The notes under the pieces are model-generated. The model worked only from the letters and a program-made list of their open reading frames with translations. It did no database searches and was not told where the DNA came from. From Polyangiaceae bacterium (GTDB taxonomy: Bacteria; Myxococcota_A; Polyangia; Polyangiales; Polyangiaceae): a stretch of DNA of 64,000 nucleotides. Position numbers and translations under genes: made by a program. Positions 3,881 to 55,730 of this stretch are shown here, in pieces (the first letter of the stretch is position 1; each line of letters starts with the position of its first letter). Location of the stretch: NCBI GenBank assembly GCA_009780955.1, contig WQZB01000006.1:1-64000 (forward strand), written 5' to 3'.

Positions 3881-4150
3881 ATGGGCTTGATAACCTTCAT
3901 TCTGTTCGGTCTCATCGTTGGTCTCATCGCGCGTGCAGTCATGCCTGGCCGACACAGCATGGGGCTTGTGGCGACTGCGCTTCTCGGCATCGCTGGCTCG
4001 TTTGTGGGCGGCCTATTTGGCAGCATCATCCGACACAACAGAAGCGTTTTCGATCTGCAGACGTCGGGCATCATCGGCAGCATTCTTGGGGCACTGCTCG
4101 TCATGTTTCTCGTTGGTATGACGGGACGTGGTCGTCACGCCACGACTTGA
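3881..4150 (+). CDS. GlsB/YeaQ/YmgE-family stress-response membrane protein
   Basis: An 89-residue integral membrane protein with three hydrophobic helices: LITFILFGLIVGLIARAV near the start, LVATALLGIAGSFVGGLFG in the middle, and SGIIGSILGALLVMFLVGM near the end. The G-x-I-A-R-x-x-M-P-G motif after helix one is characteristic of the transglycosylase-associated/YeaQ family, small inner-membrane proteins often induced by envelope or general stress. The start is set by a purine-rich AGGGAGATAGGGGAA immediately upstream. The tail is short and ends in HATT. The exact function of the family is unknown. Confidence 0.9.
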   Translation: MGLITFILFGLIVGLIARAVMPGRHSMGLVATALLGIAGSFVGGLFGSIIRHNRSVFDLQTSGIIGSILGALLVMFLVGMTGRGRHATT

Positions 4151-4151
4151 C

Positions 4152-4232
4152 GGGGCAGGCACGGGGGCCTGCCCCTACGGCAACCAGCAAAACGCATTTT
4201 TTGTAGGGGCGGCCCCCTGTGGCCGCCCCTAC
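4152..4232. repeat. Pair of GC-rich hairpins of the GTAGGGGCG type
   Basis: Two perfect inverted repeats lie in tandem just after the membrane-protein gene. The first has a 9-bp stem (4152-4160 with 4167-4175, 6-nt loop). The second has a 12-bp stem reading GTAGGGGCGGCC (4203-4214 with 4221-4232, 6-nt loop). A second pair of the same type lies at 52.32-52.41 kb. They look like REP-like intergenic elements and could stop transcription or protect 3' ends, but neither is followed by a T-run. Confidence 0.75.
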
Positions 4233-4567
4233 CCAGAGCGTGCTGTCGCTCGCTGCCCCGGGCTTCGTACGCGCCGTGTCTGCCGCCGGCGTAAGTTCGA
4301 ATCAGGCTTCGAGCGATTCGCCGAGCGCCGCGTCGACTTTCGTGAGGGACGAACGAGCGCGTCGCGTGTTGCCGTTGTTGCGCGCTTTGAAGTCCTTGCC
4401 GCGGCAGCGTGTTTCGTCTTCGCGGTCGAGGCGGCAGTGCGTTTGTGCCCCGTCAGTGCGACTGAGCGCTTGCTCGTTGCTTGCAGCGGTCGAGAGGTTG
4501 TGGCCTTGCGCCTCGGACGAGAGCTTTGTGTCTTCGTCGCCCTGCTGGTGGGTGTCTTCGTCGTCAT
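4229..4567 (-). CDS. Putative histone H1-like, Lys/Arg/Ala/Thr-rich basic protein
   Basis: A 112-residue frame with start ATG at 4567, preceded by a GGAG about nine bases upstream. It is almost entirely low complexity: repeated S/T-K/R-R-x-A-T patterns such as RPRRKATTSR, TGHKRTAAST and ARTSKRATTA, with very few acidic residues. This resembles the basic tails of bacterial H1-like or AlgP/HctB-type nucleoid proteins, which bind DNA non-specifically. No globular domain is visible. The opposite strand is also open here and the 3' end touches the GTAGGGGCG hairpin, so a compositional artefact cannot be excluded. The start with Shine-Dalgarno and the coherent composition favour a gene. Confidence 0.5.
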   Translation of the reverse strand: MTTKTPTSRATKTQSSRPRRKATTSRPLQATSKRSVALTGHKRTAASTAKTKHAAAARTSKRATTATRDALVRPSRKSTRRSANRSKPDSNLRRRQTRRVRSPGQRATARSG

Positions 4568-4685
4568 CGAAAAGAACTCCGCATGCTCCGGAGTTGCAAC
4601 GGCTACGCCCGCGCCAGTCCTGCGGCGCACGGGGCACCCGGGTTGCATCGATCACCCATCGAACGATCCGAAAGGAGTGATCGAT

Positions 4686-5228
4686 ATGAGGCAAGAAGGC
4701 CTGCTCGTGACCGACATCAAAGAGATTCGCCGCCGCGCGCGTGAGCATATCGACAAAGGAGCGGTCACGAGCAACTACGGATTGGATCTCGAGACCGCAA
4801 TAAACCTGCTCAACGAGGCAGTCGCAACCGAGCTCGTTTGCGTGCTTCGCTACAAGTACCACGCAATCATGGCTGTCGGCATTGCGAGCGAGTCGGTGAA
4901 AGCCGAGTTCGCTGAGCATGCAAGTGAAGAACTCCAGCACATGGAGTCGCTTGGCGAACGCATCAACCAACTCGGCGGCAAACCGAATCTCGACCCCACG
5001 GGTCTGCTTTCTCGCTCGTCAGCAGAGTACGTCGAAGGCGACACGCTCACCGACATGATTCGTGAGAACCTCATCGCTGAGCGCATCGCCATCGAGAGCT
5101 ATCGCGAGATGATCCGCTTCTTCGGTGACAAGGACCCGACAACACGGGTGCTGCTCGAGCGCATCCTCGAAAAAGAGGAAGAGCACGCGAACGACATGCA
5201 TGATCTACTGCGCGCTCACAGCCAATAG
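4686..5228 (+). CDS. Bacterioferritin-like ferritin-family protein
   Basis: A 180-residue four-helix ferritin-like protein with a complete set of di-iron ligands: Glu49 in helix A (VATELVCVLRYK), Glu82 and His85 in EELQHM, Glu132 in LIAERIAIESYREM, and Glu164/His167 in EKEEEHAND. The spacing matches bacterioferritins/ferritins that oxidise and store iron and protect against peroxide. Length fits the family, plus about 25 extra N-terminal residues. The start at 4686 is chosen because a strong AAAGGAG lies about seven bases upstream; the frame continues open further 5' but without any ferritin homology. Its TAG stop is the first triplet of a palindromic repeat element. No haem-ligand Met was assigned. 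Confidence 0.88.
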   Translation: MRQEGLLVTDIKEIRRRAREHIDKGAVTSNYGLDLETAINLLNEAVATELVCVLRYKYHAIMAVGIASESVKAEFAEHASEELQHMESLGERINQLGGKPNLDPTGLLSRSSAEYVEGDTLTDMIRENLIAERIAIESYREMIRFFGDKDPTTRVLLERILEKEEEHANDMHDLLRAHSQ

Positions 5229-5376
5229 CCCGCTTTCGATTTGGCGCGATCTCTTCGTTGGCGGCTCCGGTGCGGTCCTCTGACGGAGCCGTGCGACGGC
5301 GTGTGCGTGTGCTATACAAGCACACGCACCTCCCGCCGCCTCGATCTCGCGCCAACTTGGCCCACTTGAAGCGGCT
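5229..5376. repeat. Palindromic intergenic repeat, copy A (with internal hairpin)
   Basis: First of the MITE-like repeats. The left end CCGCTTTCGATTTGGCGCGAT directly follows the TAG stop of the ferritin gene. The right end is an inverted, diverged copy finishing in CTTGAAGCGG. Inside is a perfect 11-bp hairpin (GTGCGTGTGCT at 5303-5313, five-base loop, complement at 5319-5329). The same hairpin occurs in copy D. Confidence 0.8.
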
Positions 5377-17499: not shown

Positions 17500-18827
17500 C
17501 GTGCGCCCCAAAGGATGACGGCCGCGAGCGCTGGAGCGGCGCACGCAACAGCCACGATGAGCGTATCGAGCACGCCGCGAGTGTGCCTTACATTCCAGAG
17601 CATCGCTTCGAGCAGGGTAAGAGCCGCATCGAACGTTACGGCGATTGCCAGCGCCGTAATCAACGGCGTTCGCGGCCGGCGCACCACGCGGAAAAGGCCG
17701 AACGACAAAAGCACATTGAAGATGACCCATGCCCACTTGATGTGTGTTCCAAAAAACCATGGGTACGTGGGGGCTGCGGCGAGCACGATCGTCCACGGAA
17801 CGAGCAGGGTTGCTAGTGCGCGAAGCGCAAACGTCGGTCCACGCAAGAGCGAACGAATGCCAAAGCGCAAAAAGCCGCCGCGCGTGAATGCAGAAAGAGC
17901 ATCGATGAGCGAGATGGCCGGACTCTGCGAGACGGGGTAGGTGAGGTAAATCACCAACCATTCTTTAGGATTCAACTTTGCTTTGTACGCGCGAAGCCCG
18001 TCGAAATCATAAAGCGGGCTCGCTACGCGACGCAAAAGACGCAAAATGCCCGAGACATTGCCCGCGAGCGGCGCGAGTCCCAAAGTGAGCCAGCGATAGC
18101 CTGCATCGTTTGCCCATCGCATGACGGCGTCGACAAGGAGCTCGCTGGTGCCGTTCGGTGCGCTCGGATCACGAATGAGGTGCTCAATGAACCAACCGGC
18201 GCGTGCAGGTACGGAAATGACGCTCGCGAAACCGCAGATTTCGTCGTCGATTTCGGCGACGAAGCATGTGCGATCAGCCAACGTGCCAAAGGGCCCTACG
18301 CTCACAAGAAATCCCATGGGGGCCATGTGGTGAGTGGCCATCCAGCGGGCTGCAACGCGGTTGAGTGCATTGCGCGTGGGGCCTTGGGCTAGGTCGTCGT
18401 CACGCGTTTCACGAACGGTAACGCCTTTGGCACGCGCGCGGCGCAGTTGCTCACGCAAACTCGGACGAGCCGCGAGAGTCGTGAGCCATTCGTGAGGATC
18501 CCACACGGGTTGCTCGCCCACGGCAAACGACTCGAATTCGCCCGAGACAGCTTTTTGGAAGCGCTCTTCGGTGGCAAAGAAGCAGCAACGCTTGCCGGCT
18601 GCACGCGCGGCGTGAGCAAAGGATTCTGCGACGTCGCCAAGCGCCTCGGTTGCGGCAATGGGGGCGCCGGCAGCAACCCACGCATAGCCCGTATCGACGT
18701 ATGCAACGCACGCGTCGCCGTGAAAAAAGTAGGTGTAACCTGCACCTACGGTCTGAAACGCGGTTGCGTTCCATCCGTGCCTGCGAACAAGTTCGAGCAG
18801 GCGCTGTCGGGAGCTCGCAGGATTCAT
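17457..18827 (-). CDS. DUF2156/LPG-synthetase-C-like acyltransferase with C-terminal membrane helices
   Basis: A 456-residue protein. The N-terminal ~320 residues have the tandem-GNAT look of the MprF catalytic domain/DUF2156: YTYFFHGDACVAYVDTGYAW, then VWDPHEWLTTLAARPSLREQLRRARAKGV, a central GFASVISVPARAGWFIEHLIRDP, and YDFDGLRAYKAKLNPKEW with the KxKFxPxW-like end. Then come roughly four hydrophobic helices (LVPWTIVLAAAPTYPWFF to TLIVAVACAAPALAAVILW). MprF-type enzymes move aminoacyl groups from tRNA to phosphatidylglycerol; here the membrane domain is C-terminal and short, so the substrate is uncertain. Start ATG 18827; a GTG six codons earlier is possible. Divergent from the methyltransferase gene. 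Confidence 0.8.
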   Translation of the reverse strand: MNPASSRQRLLELVRRHGWNATAFQTVGAGYTYFFHGDACVAYVDTGYAWVAAGAPIAATEALGDVAESFAHAARAAGKRCCFFATEERFQKAVSGEFESFAVGEQPVWDPHEWLTTLAARPSLREQLRRARAKGVTVRETRDDDLAQGPTRNALNRVAARWMATHHMAPMGFLVSVGPFGTLADRTCFVAEIDDEICGFASVISVPARAGWFIEHLIRDPSAPNGTSELLVDAVMRWANDAGYRWLTLGLAPLAGNVSGILRLLRRVASPLYDFDGLRAYKAKLNPKEWLVIYLTYPVSQSPAISLIDALSAFTRGGFLRFGIRSLLRGPTFALRALATLLVPWTIVLAAAPTYPWFFGTHIKWAWVIFNVLLSFGLFRVVRRPRTPLITALAIAVTFDAALTLLEAMLWNVRHTRGVLDTLIVAVACAAPALAAVILWGARYRIVGASESAVAK

Positions 18828-18866
18828 CGATACGGCCGACTGCACGCGCGGCTATTCTACAAGCCC

Positions 18867-19490
18867 ATGGGACCTATTTTCGCTTACTTCTACGATTCCT
18901 TCATGCGCAAAACAGAGGAGACTTGTCTTGCACCGTGGCGCAGGGAGCTTTTGTCAGAGGTGGGTGGCCGTGTGCTCGAAATCGGCGCTGGCACTGGAGC
19001 GTGCCTTCGGCACTACCCACGCGCGGTCACGCGGCTCGTCGTCGCGGAGCCCGACCGGTGGATGCGCGCGCGGCTTGCCCGCGGCATTGCAGGCGGCGGA
19101 GGGGCGATCTGCCCATCAGCCATCGAAACGTCTGCGGCCTCTGCCGATGCCCTGCCATTTGATGATGCGTCGTTCGATGCGGTTGTCTCGATGCTTGTAC
19201 TTTGCTCCGTGCCCAATCAAGCCTTAGTACTCGCCGAGATCCGGCGCGTGCTCATCCCGGGCGGCCGGTTCGTCTTCCTCGAGCACGTTGCCTCCGATGA
19301 TCCAAAAAGCTTTGCGTGGCAGCGTTGGCTCGACCCCATGTGGAGCTGCTTTGCTTCGGGGTGCCATATCACGCGCCGCACGCTCGAGGCGATCCGCAGT
19401 GCTGGTTTCGAGCTTGAACGCGAAGAGCACGCGAACATGCAAGGATCTTTTTCGTGCCTGGCTCCCACCGTGCGCGGCATCGCACGGTGA
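18867..19490 (+). CDS. Class I SAM-dependent methyltransferase
   Basis: A 207-residue methyltransferase of the UbiE/METTL7-like kind. Motif I is VLEIGAGTGACLRHYP, motif II VVAEPDRWM, a post-II motif is ASADALPFDDASFDAVVSMLVLCSV, and motif III is IRRVLIPGGRFVFLEHVASDD. The C-terminus (WQRWLDPMWSCFASGCHITR) resembles the lipid/thiol-methylating METTL7 group. Substrate unknown. The start at 18867 is chosen because homology begins there; the frame is open further upstream but overlaps the divergent DUF2156 gene. Its TGA stop merges with the left end of repeat copy B. Confidence 0.9.
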   Translation: MGPIFAYFYDSFMRKTEETCLAPWRRELLSEVGGRVLEIGAGTGACLRHYPRAVTRLVVAEPDRWMRARLARGIAGGGGAICPSAIETSAASADALPFDDASFDAVVSMLVLCSVPNQALVLAEIRRVLIPGGRFVFLEHVASDDPKSFAWQRWLDPMWSCFASGCHITRRTLEAIRSAGFELEREEHANMQGSFSCLAPTVRGIAR

Positions 19491-19611
19491 CCGCTTTCGA
19501 TTTGACGCGATCTCTTCGTTGGCGGCTGCGGTCCGGTCCTCAAAGCCGAAGCAGGCTGTTCCGGTCCGGTCCTCGCCGCCGCCTCGACCTCGCGTCAACT
19601 TGAAAGCGGTC
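19489..19611. repeat. Palindromic intergenic repeat, copy B
   Basis: A 123-bp element. Left end GACCGCTTTCGATTTGACGC begins inside the TGA stop of the methyltransferase gene. Right end GCGTCAACTTGAAAGCGGTC is its imperfect inverted complement. The inner part (GTTGGCGGCTGCGGT, then a CTGTTCCGGTCCGGTCCT stretch) is shared with copies C and D. It lacks the GTGCGTGTGCT hairpin. Confidence 0.85.
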
Positions 19612-33691: not shown

Positions 33692-35845
33692 ATGGAAGGC
33701 AAAGCAAAGGTCGCGTTAACGTTCGCGCTCTACCAGGGTGAAAAGCTTATTTTTCGCCAAACGGTTGCTCAAGACATCGTGAAGGTCGGAAAGGATCCGC
33801 GGAGCCACCTCCGCGTCGACGACGATCTCGCGTCGCGCATGCATGCCGTCATTGAGGTGGTCGGGATCGTAGACGTCACGCTCATCGATCTTGGCAATGA
33901 GCCAGGCACGATGGTCAATGGTCAACGTGTCAACAAATGCAAGCTGCATCCTGGCGATCAAATCCAGATCGGCTCAACGATGATCGTGCTCGAAAGCGCG
34001 AAATACGCGACTGAAGCGACTGAAGCGACTGGCGCGGCTGTCGTTGACACTCCAGGTCTCGCGGGTCTCCCAAGCCTCGTCGGTGGTGGGCAAAGCACGG
34101 GCAACGAACCTTCGGCAGCCGCCGGTGCAGCGGGCGGCGCACTCGGGGTGGAGGCTGTGGCAGCCAATCCGTTTGCGTCTGTGGAACCAACAGGCGGCAG
34201 TTCATCGTCGAATCCGTTTTCGCCATCGAATCCGTTCGCGCCGTCCGCATTCGCACCAAACCCATTTGTCGCGTCGGCAGCAGATCAGGGCTACGGCATC
34301 AACGCGCCTGGCGGAAGCGACTTCGATCCAAACCAGCCGTACACGTACGCAATGGTCAAAAGCGGCCCGGACGTACGCCCGGAAGACGTCGAAAGCCTCG
34401 ACGCGGCGGTTGAAGTCATCATCAAGTGGGACACGAACACGATCCACGCCTCGCACACGAGCCCGCCAAAAAGCTTTTTCGTTGGTGAGACGGACTGCGA
34501 CTACACCATTCCGCAGAAGGTGATTGGAACAGACCGCGCTCCGATCGTTATCGCGCGCGGTGTTACCGTGGTGCTCATCATGCTTCCGCGCTCGACGGGC
34601 ACCATTGAGATCCCGGAGCAGGGCACCTTCACGTTTCAAGAGATCATTGCGTCGGGGCGCGCGCGTTCGTCGAGCGAGCTTTCCGGAGCGCATGAATTCG
34701 AGCTTCCAACCAACGCGAAGGCGCGCATGGAGCTCGAAGAATTCAGCATCGTGTTCGAGGTAAGTGCCGTCAACGCCGGCAAGCATTTGCCCGTGAGTGC
34801 GTTTTCGAGCATTGAGCCGGCGGCCATTCTCTTTTTCAGTCTGTCGTTTTTGCTCCACGTTGGTGTTCTCGCCTCAATGGCGTTTTTCATGCCCAAGATG
34901 AGCGGCGATGACAGCGAAGCGCTTGACCGCAGCCAGATACTTGCTGCGCGAAAGTTGCTCGACGCATCGGCGGAGCGCGAGCAGGAAGAGAAGCAGAGCG
35001 ATCAAATCTCCAACGAAAACGCCGATCACCGAGAAGGCGGAACAGGCACACGCGCCAAGGGTGAAGAGGGTTCCATGGGCAACCCGAACAGCACCGCAAC
35101 GAATCGGCGCTACGGCATTCAAGGCCCGGCAGACAACGCTGACCCGCACATCGCACGTCAGGCGGCGATTCGGCAAGCGCAGGAATTCGGCATGATTGGC
35201 CTAATCAACGCCGGCGGGGGCGGCGATCCGAATGCCCCAACGGCGCCGTGGGGCCGTGAAGACTCGCTCGGCAACGATCCGCTTAGCGCTCGCGGCAACA
35301 TGTGGGGCGACACGATTGGCGACGCGTTCGGTGCTGGCGGCTTGGGTTTGTCGGGCGTTGGTGAAGGTGGCGGCGGCCGTGGCGAAGGCATCGGTATGGG
35401 CAACATTGGCACGTTTGGTCATGGCGCCGGCACCGGCACGGGTCAGGGCTTCGGCCCAGGCGGCGGTGGCATGGGCGGGGGTCGGGGCCGTGTCACCGGC
35501 ACGCACCAGGGCAAGGCGCCAAGGCTTACGCCGCTCAGCACAGTCGTCAACGGACGCCTGCCGCCAGAAGTCATCCAGCGCATCGTTCGCCAGAACTTCG
35601 GCCGCTTCCGTCTCTGCTACGAGAACGGCATGCGCAATAACCCGAACCTGGAGGGTCGCATCGCGGTCAGATTCGTCATCGACCGTTCCGGCGCCGTTTC
35701 CCTTACACAAGACGGCGGCTCGAGTTTGCCCGATCAAGGTGTTGTGTCGTGCGTTGTTCGCGCTTTCCAAAATCTATCGTTCCCGCAGCCCGAAGGCGGT
35801 ATCGTCACAGTCATATACCCGATCATCTTCTCCCCTGGTGATTAG
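33692..35845 (+). CDS. gltG: GltG: FHA domain, single TM, AgmX/PglI-type C-terminal domain
   Basis: A 717-residue inner-membrane protein linking cytoplasm and periplasm. Residues ~25-98 form an FHA phosphopeptide-binding domain (VGKDPRSHLRVDDDLASRMH and GTMVNGQRV). A disordered linker follows with five N-P-F motifs near residues 165-195, then a second beta-rich domain and a membrane helix at ~375-398 (AAILFFSLSFLLHVGVLASM). After an acidic and a long Gly-rich periplasmic stretch, residues ~610-717 form the TonB-like AgmX/PglI C-terminal domain (QNFGRFRLCYENGM, VRFVIDRSGAVS, CVVRAFQNLSFPQPEGG). This architecture defines GltG/PglI of the gliding machinery. The TAG stop abuts repeat copy C. A tail fragment of a close paralogue lies at 52.4-52.6 kb. 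Confidence 0.88.
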   Translation: MEGKAKVALTFALYQGEKLIFRQTVAQDIVKVGKDPRSHLRVDDDLASRMHAVIEVVGIVDVTLIDLGNEPGTMVNGQRVNKCKLHPGDQIQIGSTMIVLESAKYATEATEATGAAVVDTPGLAGLPSLVGGGQSTGNEPSAAAGAAGGALGVEAVAANPFASVEPTGGSSSSNPFSPSNPFAPSAFAPNPFVASAADQGYGINAPGGSDFDPNQPYTYAMVKSGPDVRPEDVESLDAAVEVIIKWDTNTIHASHTSPPKSFFVGETDCDYTIPQKVIGTDRAPIVIARGVTVVLIMLPRSTGTIEIPEQGTFTFQEIIASGRARSSSELSGAHEFELPTNAKARMELEEFSIVFEVSAVNAGKHLPVSAFSSIEPAAILFFSLSFLLHVGVLASMAFFMPKMSGDDSEALDRSQILAARKLLDASAEREQEEKQSDQISNENADHREGGTGTRAKGEEGSMGNPNSTATNRRYGIQGPADNADPHIARQAAIRQAQEFGMIGLINAGGGGDPNAPTAPWGREDSLGNDPLSARGNMWGDTIGDAFGAGGLGLSGVGEGGGGRGEGIGMGNIGTFGHGAGTGTGQGFGPGGGGMGGGRGRVTGTHQGKAPRLTPLSTVVNGRLPPEVIQRIVRQNFGRFRLCYENGMRNNPNLEGRIAVRFVIDRSGAVSLTQDGGSSLPDQGVVSCVVRAFQNLSFPQPEGGIVTVIYPIIFSPGD

Positions 35846-35967
35846 CCCGCTTTCGATTTGCCGCGATTTCATCGTTGGCGGCTGCGGTGCGGTCCTCAAA
35901 GCCGCAGCAGGCTGTTCCGGTCCGCTCCTCGCCGCCGCCTTGAACTCGCGTCAACTTGAAAGCGGTC
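35845..35967. repeat. Palindromic intergenic repeat, copy C
   Basis: About 123 bp, starting in the TAG stop of gltG (left end GCCCGCTTTCGATTTGCCGC) and ending in ACTTGAAAGCGGTCTAG. Nearly the same inner sequence as copy B; without the GTGCGTGTGCT hairpin. It separates gltG from the esterase gene. Confidence 0.85.
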
Positions 35968-37088: not shown

Positions 37089-38057
37089 ATGAAAAGGGTG
37101 ACGTTCATCGGCGCGTTGATTGTGCTCTCGCTCGCAACGCTTGGTGCTGGCTGCAACCGCAACGCAATCGATGCTGTGAACCTCACCAACGAGGCCGACC
37201 AAGAGAAATCCACCAATCTCGACGGCGCCATCTCGAAGTACGATCAGGCAGCCAACCTCGATCCAGACAACCACCGTATCCTTTGGAAGCTCGCGCAGGC
37301 GTACGCAAAAAAGGAAGCGTGGGACAAGGTTGCGTCCACGTGCAGTCGTGCCAAGAAGATTGCCCCAGATTTCGCCAATTTCTTCTTCCTTCACGGCTAT
37401 GCGCTCTCGCAGTTAGCCTCGAAGGGTTCAGTCGCGTACAACGACGCGAAAGTACCCCTTGAAGAATCAATCAGGCTCGATCCGAACGGCCCGAACTACC
37501 CGGCGGCGAACAACGAATGGGACGCGAAGAATGCCGGTGCGGCTCATTTCGAGCTCGCCGAAGTTCTTCTTCACCTCGATAAAGAAGCCGACGCGCTGAA
37601 GTACTATACGCAGGCAATCTATGTTAAGCCTGACACACTCAACTTTTACCCGGTGCTTGCGAAATTGTACCTGGACCTGAACCACACCGCCGAGGCCGAG
37701 CAGGTTCTCAATCAGGCTATCGGCTTTGCGAAAGACGGCGACAAGTCCCTTTTCAATGTTCACACGTTGCTCGGCGAAGTCGCTGGTCGAAGGCACGATC
37801 TTACCAGGGCTGCCAGCGAGTATGAGCTGGCGCGCAAAGCGTGTGGACAATGCAACGAGGCTGGGCAACAAATCGCTTTTTTCAACCTTGGCGCAGTGTA
37901 CGCCACCCAAACGCCGCCGAAGAAAAGCGAGGCAATGTCACAGCTGCAGTCCTTTCATAAGATGATCTGCAAAGGCGCGGCGGCGCAACGTTATGCCGAC
38001 CAATGCGCAACGGCGCAGCAGCTTGCGACCAAGCTTGGTGGAACTCTCCAGCCATAG
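37089..38057 (+). CDS. TPR lipoprotein
   Basis: A 322-residue lipoprotein (MKRVTFIGALIVLSLATLGAGC, Cys22) composed of TPRs: LDGAISKYDQAANLDPDNHR, ILWKLAQAYAKKEAWDKVAS, AALHLDKEAD-type helices, and LAKLYLDLNHTAEAEQVLNQ. A C-terminal region has four spaced Cys. It resembles the GltE-like lipoprotein in signal sequence and repeat type and could be a second outer-membrane TPR component of the same machine. No specific Glt name is assigned. The TAG stop is fused to the left end of repeat copy D. Confidence 0.8.
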   Translation: MKRVTFIGALIVLSLATLGAGCNRNAIDAVNLTNEADQEKSTNLDGAISKYDQAANLDPDNHRILWKLAQAYAKKEAWDKVASTCSRAKKIAPDFANFFFLHGYALSQLASKGSVAYNDAKVPLEESIRLDPNGPNYPAANNEWDAKNAGAAHFELAEVLLHLDKEADALKYYTQAIYVKPDTLNFYPVLAKLYLDLNHTAEAEQVLNQAIGFAKDGDKSLFNVHTLLGEVAGRRHDLTRAASEYELARKACGQCNEAGQQIAFFNLGAVYATQTPPKKSEAMSQLQSFHKMICKGAAAQRYADQCATAQQLATKLGGTLQP

Positions 38058-38288
38058 ACCGCTTTCGATTTGACGCGCCCTTTTCGCGTTTTGGGTCGTT
38101 GGCGGCTGCGGTGCGGTCCTCTGACTTCGCGGTGCGACGGCGTGTGCGTGTGCTATACAAGCACACGCACCAAAGCCAGAAGAGGCTGTTCCGGTCCGCT
38201 CCTGGCCGAGCCGTGCGAGGCCGTGTACGTGTGCTATCAGCACACGTACCTCCCGCCGCCTTGAACTCGCGTCAACTTGAAAGCGGTT
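38057..38288. repeat. Palindromic intergenic repeat, copy D (long form with two hairpins)
   Basis: A 232-bp version with ends GACCGCTTTCGATTTGACGC and CGTCAACTTGAAAGCGG. It contains two hairpin modules. The first is GTGCGTGTGCT (38144-38154) with its perfect complement at 38160-38170. The second is GTACGTGTGCT (38225-38235) with its perfect complement at 38239-38249. The second stem differs from the first by one base pair changed on both arms. Confidence 0.88.
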
Positions 38289-52435: not shown

Positions 52436-52580
52436 CTATTCGCCCGGAGTAAAAGTGATCGGATAGGTGACCGTGACGATGCCGCCTTCGGGCTGCGGAA
52501 ACGATAGATTTTGGAAAGCGCGAACAACGCACGACACAACACCCTGGTCGGGCAACTGAGAGCCGCCGTCTTGTGTGGTG
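52436..52580 (-). pseudogene. Relic: C-terminal tail of a GltG-like AgmX/PglI-domain protein
   Basis: The minus strand encodes T-Q-D-G-G-S-Q-L-P-D-Q-G-V-V-S and onward to V-T-Y-P-I-T-F-T-P-G-E and a TAG stop. This is almost the same as the last 47 residues of GltG at 35.7-35.8 kb. By hand count about 120 of 143 bases match, including a 44-base identical run. Upstream of codon 1 of the match the frame reads unrelated Arg/Ser-rich sequence, so the rest of the gene is missing. It is a fragment of a paralogue, not a functional gene. Confidence 0.8.
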
Positions 52581-52687
52581 GAAAACACCTTCGCGCTGGC
52601 CTTACTTTGGCGGCGCCGGATAGCACGACGACCTTCTTCTCGCGAGCCGCTCGCCCTGGGTTTTTCGGCACCCTACTGTCGGCAGCC

Positions 52688-54298: not shown

Positions 54299-55730
54299 GC
54301 CTTTGCTGTTCTGGTTCCAGCCGCCTCGAACTCGCGTCAACTTGAAAGCGCTCTAAAACACCCACGAGCGAGTGCTTGTTGGCGCGCACGATTTCAACTT
54401 CGGCGACTGCACCTGGAACGATTGTGCGATCGTTTGGCTGTGCGATGTGGACAATCTCGTTGCGACCAGTTCGCCCCTCGACCAGCACTTCGCCGCTATC
54501 GCGTGTCGCGCTTGCCTTGCTTGCGCCCTCGACAAGAACCGTTTGCGTGGTGCCGACGAGAGTCGCTAGATGGGCCTGCGTTTGTGCCTCGGCGAGTTCG
54601 AACAAGCGTGCGAGTCGCTCGCTTTTCGTCTCTTCGGGCACGTCGTCGTGGAGCCTCGATGCCGGCGTGAAAGGGCGACGCGAGTACTTGAAGCCAAAAA
54701 GACTAACGAAGCCGATTTCGCGCACGAGATCGAGCGTGGCTTCGAAGTCTGCATTGGTTTCTCCAGGGAAGCCCACGATGATGTCGGTCGATAGGGTCAT
54801 GTCGGAGTGGGCCGATAGCAAAAGGCGCGCGCGTGTTATGTATTCTGCGCGGCTGTAGCGTCGGATCATTCGCTTGAGAATGCGATCGCTGCCGGACTGG
54901 ACCGGCAAGTGCACGTGGTGAGCAAGAATGCTAATTTCGGCATGGGCGCGCGCCAGGGCCTGGCTTGTGTGGCGCGGATGCGGGCTTGCGTAACGGAGCC
55001 TTTTCAGGCCTGGTATATGCCGGGCGATGAGCCGGAGAAGCTCCGGGAACTGGCTTTCGTCGCAGTCGGCTGCAGGTGGTCGTGATGGCCCTTCTAACGC
55101 GCTATCGCGAAAGCTGTTGACGGTTTGGCCGAGCAAGGTCACTTCACGTGTTCCAGAATCGACCAGGCGCGCAATTTCATCGACGATTTCGCGGCTACTG
55201 CGGTAGCGTTCAGGCCCGCGCGTGTGCGGCACGATGCAGAACGAACAGCGTTCGTCGCACCCCTTCATCGTTGTAACGAAAGCGCTGACCGGTGCCTTTC
55301 CCGGGCTTGGTATTGCCGCGAGAAAGCGAGGGGCATCCATGTCAAAGGCCGTGCGCACGCGGGCGGGCGCGCCGAGCCTCTGATCGAAAACAAGTGCGGG
55401 CAGCTCGGCGATGTTGTCGGGGCCGATGACGAGGTCAAGGTGCGGAGCGAAAGCCAGTAGCTTTTCTCCTTCTTGCTGCGCAACGCACCCTGATACAGCA
55501 AGCACAAGGCCAGGGTTGCGTGCCTTTAGCGAAGCAAGCCTTCCGATCTCGCTTCGCAACTTCTGCTCGGCCTTCTCGCGGACGCTGCATGTGTTGATGA
55601 CGATGAGGTCGGCTTCGTCACGATGACGCGCGGCGCTCCACCCATGTGCCTTTAGCGCTTCGGCCATGCGGTCGGAGTCGTGGGCGTTCATCTGGCACCC
55701 AAAGGTGTGCACAAGGTAGCGGAGAGGCAC
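54270..55730 (-). CDS. miaB: tRNA-2-methylthio-N6-dimethylallyladenosine synthase MiaB
   Basis: A 486-residue radical-SAM methylthiotransferase that modifies A37 of tRNAs reading UNN codons. The N-terminal UPF0004 domain has the three cluster-binding Cys12, Cys48 and Cys82 (FGCQMN, NTCSV, SGCVAQQ). The radical-SAM motif KGCDERCSFC (Cys158, 162, 165) follows, then VTLLGQTVNSF and HLPVQSGSDRIL, and a C-terminal TRAM domain ending near HSLVGVLE. The last ~25 residues (RFQVDASSRR to FLPILGAS) are encoded by repeat E and the 37-bp repeat, so the original stop appears to have been lost. Enzymatic parts are intact. Confidence 0.96.
   Translation of the reverse strand: MPLRYLVHTFGCQMNAHDSDRMAEALKAHGWSAARHRDEADLIVINTCSVREKAEQKLRSEIGRLASLKARNPGLVLAVSGCVAQQEGEKLLAFAPHLDLVIGPDNIAELPALVFDQRLGAPARVRTAFDMDAPRFLAAIPSPGKAPVSAFVTTMKGCDERCSFCIVPHTRGPERYRSSREIVDEIARLVDSGTREVTLLGQTVNSFRDSALEGPSRPPAADCDESQFPELLRLIARHIPGLKRLRYASPHPRHTSQALARAHAEISILAHHVHLPVQSGSDRILKRMIRRYSRAEYITRARLLLSAHSDMTLSTDIIVGFPGETNADFEATLDLVREIGFVSLFGFKYSRRPFTPASRLHDDVPEETKSERLARLFELAEAQTQAHLATLVGTTQTVLVEGASKASATRDSGEVLVEGRTGRNEIVHIAQPNDRTIVPGAVAEVEIVRANKHSLVGVLERFQVDASSRRLEPEQQRRFLPILGAS
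54299..54355. repeat. Palindromic intergenic repeat, half copy E
   Basis: The right terminus of the family (CTCGCGTCAACTTGAAAGCG, then CTCTA) fused to a GTTCTGGTTCCAGCCGCC inner part, with the left half missing. On the minus strand it follows miaB coding sequence and is read in frame, giving R-F-Q-V-D-A-S-S-R-R. Confidence 0.75.

Follow-up and report, generated by a model that had tools for sequence, protein, structure and literature searches.

Integron attC sites follow a gene's stop codon in a defined orientation, and their bottom strand folds as a hairpin whose structure is kept with little sequence. REP and REPIN elements, associated with a RAYT (Y1) transposase, are short palindromes scattered through genomes and believed to move in the form of single-stranded hairpins. 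Small palindromic repeats are common, but their means of movement and the reason why the two arms remain complementary are largely unsettled. The ERIC (IRU) sequence of enterobacteria is an imperfect palindrome of about 127 bp, present in tens to hundreds of copies that are intergenic and sometimes placed at the 3′ ends of genes (PMC10969869, PMC2229807). The Correia or NEMIS repeats of Neisseria carry terminal inverted repeats with TA at the termini and exist in forms of about 107 and about 155 bp, the difference being an internal insert of about 50 bp (PMC2229807). The element described here was found in a window of 64,000 nucleotides from a Polyangiaceae bacterium (contig WQZB01000006.1, positions 1 to 64,000, forward strand). 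It resembles ERIC in size, copy number and intergenic 3′ position, but its host belongs to an unrelated phylum and it has a conserved core, freely replaced arms, a module with two insertion sites and a strand-asymmetric fold. With Correia it shares an internal insert of about 50 bp; however, Correia ends are conserved terminal repeats, whereas the ends of this element vary between lineages and no target duplication is apparent in the flanks inspected.

The position behind stop codons and the bottom-strand fold liken the element to attC. Nevertheless, inspection by eye of the core and the ends found no attC core boxes (GTTRRRY/RYYYAAC), several of the preceding genes are conserved residents rather than cassettes, and no integron integrase scored above the cut-off in the window's genome (G000) or in a congener (G010), where only tyrosine recombinases below the cut-off were seen; attC membership was rejected on the integrase result. 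The single integrase above the cut-off was in G091. In comparison with REP and REPIN the element is longer and has a conserved core, and the absence of any match to the Y1 transposase (PF01797, RAYT-type) in G000, which is 98.7% complete, led to rejection of a place in the REP/REPIN-RAYT system; G010 gave one such match. A relation to retrons or group II introns was set aside because neither G000 nor G010 yielded a reverse transcriptase. Rfam, searched at gathering and relaxed thresholds, gave no covariance-model match that would place this structured element, which extends over the phylum, in a curated RNA family, and no paper describing it was found in the open-licence literature.

The basic form of the element measures 121 nt and is an imperfect hairpin over its whole length, which accepts an accessory module of about 50 nt at site 1 (GTCCTC^AAAGCC) or at site 2 (GCTCC^TCGCC). 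All copies in the window lie on the + strand, and copies A to D begin, all four, inside the stop codon of the preceding gene. Copy A (5228-5376) starts in the TAG of ORF 4128-5228 and carries at site 1 a module of about 50 nt (5281-5330) fused to the right arm, the apex being missing. Copies B (19489-19611, from the TGA of ORF 18447-19490) and C (35845-35967, from the TAG of ORF 33692-35845) represent the basic form without module. The long copy D (38057-38288), which starts in the TAG of ORF 37089-38057, has modules at both sites, located at 38122-38171 (site 1) and 38203-38250 (site 2), while the partial copy E (54316-54353) consists of the right arm only. The predicted fold of copy C reaches -66.6 kcal/mol (z -6.6) and that of copy D -118.8 kcal/mol (z -6.5). 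Parts of the hairpin are exchanged in other copies. The apex is swapped for CTGCGCACGTACCACAACGTACGCTTACGCG in G000:C2:45608, G000:C8:22321 and G000:C13:21611, a modular exchange of the hairpin tip, and the right half of G010:C3:11142-11328, C4:33608-33760, C4:43657-43842 and C2:112426-112658 carries GCAGTTCGAGTCCGGTCGCATC, which is like a tRNA T-arm. The window also contains, at 4203-4232, a perfect 12-bp hairpin, GTAGGGGCGGCC..GGCCGCCCCTAC, that recurs in G000 and G010 at several sites of the element as well as within chimeric copies, and that seems to represent a second family of scattered palindromes. A 149-nt inverted repeat, 85% alike, is formed by 35697-35845 and 52436-52584; one of its arms is the 3′ end of the 717-aa ORF preceding copy C.

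The modules of copies A and D contain the small hairpins on which the initial annotation had centred. As it had stated, GTGCGTGTGCT/AGCACACGCAC is perfect at 5303-5329 in copy A and at 38144-38170 in copy D (D1), both in the GTGC form with the five-nucleotide loop ATACA, and GTACGTGTGCT/AGCACACGTAC is perfect at 38225-38249 in copy D (D2), in the GTAC form with the three-nucleotide loop ATC. Few short perfect hairpins in the window are as long as these three. They are not due to chance, since a scan of G000 allowing up to 3 mismatches and a 5-nt loop found 21 such hairpins against 0 for the reversed control pattern. Fourteen of the 21 are identical GTGC forms, two are GTAC/GTAC (C42:10185 and C66:231) and the remainder carry one-armed or irregular changes. 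When other loop lengths are counted as well, the GTAC/GTAC form is present in three copies (D2, G000:C42:10185 and G000:C66:231), all of the site-2 type and similar in the upstream segment. The replacement of a G-C by an A-T pair on both arms of D2, with the stem kept perfect, is real as the initial annotation described it, but it was inherited and did not arise in copy D, the same form being common to the other two copies: D2 is the same module of about 50 nt inserted at the second site of the repeat and not a mutated D1 or A. Against this one paired variant of the small hairpin, three copies of one lineage, at least six one-armed changes were counted in other copies (G000:C7:68875, C21:53969, C94:4611, C33:37509, G010:C2:112561 and G010:C2:16210). 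One-armed changes are hence at least as frequent as paired ones, which is what the initial annotation had named as speaking against its own reading, and the covariation evidence for this small hairpin is weak.

Outside the window the element is widely dispersed. The 1.64 Mb of G000 that were read contain 75 two-ended copies and the 0.77 Mb of G010 contain 40, a density of 45.6 and 52 per Mb in continuous stretches. Extrapolation from these samples, about 40% of the G000 sequence and about 16% of the G010 sequence, both genomes being drafts, gives about 190 and about 250 copies per genome. By DNA similarity, this high-copy form occurs in one of 11 congeners tested, namely G010. At 4.2 and 4.8 Mb, G000 and G010 are smaller than every other genome in the genus set (6.6-11.9 Mb). 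In the sampled genomes the stop codon of a long ORF ends exactly at -1/0 for 49 of 124 left ends, and at 13 further left ends the ORF terminates at an in-element TGA at +15, whereas 2% of random points lie within 8 nt of such a stop. Orthologous sites that are empty in the other genome keep a native stop, for example TTTTGA at G000:C5_48214 and G010:C2_30808 and ACTGA at G010:C5_49810, so that insertion took place behind pre-existing stop codons; several of the preceding genes are conserved at orthologous sites devoid of the element. Being non-coding, 100-200 bp long and dispersed, with inverted ends and with filled and empty orthologous sites, the element has the features of a small mobile repeat of the MITE-like type. 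Its placement at stop codons would reflect a preference for T(G/A)GA targets in compact genomes. The flanks are T- and A-rich at both ends and show a preference for GA..TC and TA. Pairing of the flanks beyond the element ends is, at 9 pairs or more, no more frequent than with shuffled partners, which argues against arms formed in G000 simply by outward copying of the target. The terminal nucleotides pair too and, because the left ones can derive from the target, the pairing at the ends may result in part from the choice of target.

If the small hairpin offers little, the claim of covariation holds for the whole element that carries it. In 58 aligned copies of G000 and G010, 97.6% of the stem cells are paired and 14 pairs show two-sided change, against 4.9 in shuffles; two-sided cells total 86, against 26.1 in shuffles and 0-5 in slid structures, a total that overstates the number of events since the copies share ancestry and the counts are not independent. 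Among rare alleles in 86 copies, 21 stem cells changed on both sides, 21 of 21 to Watson-Crick pairs, and 29 on one side; by our own arithmetic the rare-allele counts predict about 0.06 two-sided cells by chance. The covariation of the carrier element is overwhelming. Paired changes could also be produced in a single step, and with no selection for a fold, if template switching or quasipalindrome correction copied one arm onto the other. Several copies would fit this process: the paired changes G6T/C120A, C11T/G115A and G20A/C106T are each private to one sampled copy, as is a paired one-base deletion in G010:C6:48806; the outer arm of G010:C8:47262 has been wholly replaced and still pairs (TACATC/GATGTA); and in G010:C3:99169 and G010:C6:63849 the left arm is the inverse of the right. 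Since such arm conversion occurs in a few copies, template switching contributes something. Copying from arm to arm would, however, erase the mismatches T.C, C.T and T.T, which are unchanged in 84-86 of 86 copies even beside private paired changes. The kept mismatches speak against arm-to-arm copying as the general cause, and we consider it quite improbable as the explanation of the covariation.

With a covariance model, copies were detected in further genomes of the family. These relatives, up to about 160 nt long, retain the length and the core, CTTCGTTG...CTGCGGT.CG..CTCA, apex, TTCCGC..CGCTCCTCG...CGCCTCG..CTCG, and have outer arms that are unrelated in sequence and still complementary. 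For 22 diverse copies the covariation score was 0.518, against 0.141 in shuffled and at most 0.108 in slid controls, with 149 two-sided cells. Of 183 genomes from the order, 46 were matched by a second model at E<=1e-6, as were 28 in a draw of 282 from the phylum, the E-values of short-calibrated models being rough and the match numbers within each genome lower bounds; among viral contigs, one gave a single core match, for which the R1 model provided no confirmation. Copies in other classes often begin at a stop codon as well, for example L271, TGAAAACTTGC...GCAAGTTTTCA. Within G412 and within G074 the arms vary from copy to copy; in G041 and in G107 the copies have their arms in common. Across relatives the core is the most conserved part and the ends are the least conserved, a pattern opposite to that of an ordinary DDE-type MITE, whose ends would be bound as double-stranded DNA and whose pairing would simply follow from matching terminal repeats. 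The hundreds of near-identical copies with inverted ends, the empty sites and the T- and A-rich flanks would all suit such a MITE. Yet the pairing spans the full length, variable middle stems included, the flanks inspected show no clear direct target duplication, and no transposase having such ends was recognised: a search for an autonomous partner gave 17 wider-spaced end pairs in 2.5 Mb sampled, in which the longest ORFs look like ordinary resident genes. We regard a DDE-type origin as improbable.

The two strands of the element are not equivalent. Among the arm mismatches of 32 diverse copies, read on the top strand, A.C outnumbers G.T (47 to 9, p=2.6e-7) and Y.Y outnumbers R.R (68 to 18, p=5e-8); read on the bottom strand, these A.C and Y.Y mismatches become G.T/G.U and purine-purine. 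With DNA parameters the bottom strand gives the better fold in 30 of the 32 copies, with RNA parameters in 27. In G000 and G010 the bottom strand folds better in 78 of 89 copies with DNA parameters, but RNA parameters favour the top strand in 63 of 89, so that the strand argument is not uniform in the window's own family. A double-stranded cruciform or arm copying would be symmetric, and hence the asymmetry favours a bottom strand folding while single-stranded, probably as DNA somewhat more than as RNA. The initial annotation had left the choice between selection for a fold, RNA or cruciform, and palindrome-based copying; the kept mismatches and the strand asymmetry separate these in part, in favour of a single-stranded fold and to the disadvantage of cruciform and arm copying. 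A structured RNA acting in the host transcript, as terminator, decay barrier, RNase site or antisense RNA at 3′ ends, would covary because the RNA fold of each copy is under selection where it lies. Copies directly behind stop codons, strong covariation with a conserved core and, if the bottom strand is the RNA, a tolerance of the G.U type agree with it, and ERIC and Correia repeats do affect mRNA processing (PMC10969869, PMC2229807). Nonetheless, the element is oriented with the preceding gene and its favoured fold is on the opposite, antisense strand, the rare one-armed changes in G000 and G010 show no top-strand G.U preference (6 G.T and 11 A.C), the high-copy form detected by DNA similarity occurs in one congener of the 11, and Rfam gave no match. 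A role as host RNA seems to us rather unlikely.

From what was observed, namely the dispersal and the empty sites, the position at stop codons, the covariation, the conserved core and the asymmetry between strands, we propose, with a confidence just short of even, that the element is a mobile repeat akin to ERIC and Correia that propagates through a step in which its bottom strand, single-stranded, folds into a hairpin. In the model, a non-autonomous, MITE-like repeat, an imperfect hairpin of about 120 nt with a conserved core and freely changing complementary arms, would have its bottom strand, antisense to the preceding gene, folded at an obligatory step of propagation. The folding form would most likely be single-stranded DNA, recognised through the core by a putative enzyme. 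Copies would insert at targets of the T(G/A)GA type, which in compact genomes often are stop codons. Selection would act at propagation rather than in the host, and the covariation would arise because only arms able to pair spread; after insertion, copies would decay through one-armed mutations. The module of about 50 nt with its GTGC/GTAC hairpin would be an accessory insert with two internal sites. A stronger version of the proposal, which we find doubtful, is that the element represents a so far undescribed class of mobile DNA in Myxococcota, a strand-specific single-stranded DNA hairpin recognised by its core, with arbitrary arms, and inserted behind stop codons by a host or other putative recombinase. 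Because its copies run to hundreds in a genome and come with empty sites, diverse relatives and a measurable strand bias, the element makes selection for the fold, copying between arms and RNA function distinguishable.

Some copies in relatives have particular surroundings. The copy at L224 (G005:C566), positions 1501-1621, lies among several tRNA genes that form an array on the opposite strand. Head-to-tail tandem pairs occur at G110:C52:25478/25602, G110:C41:32306/32431 and G282:C101:9987/10126.
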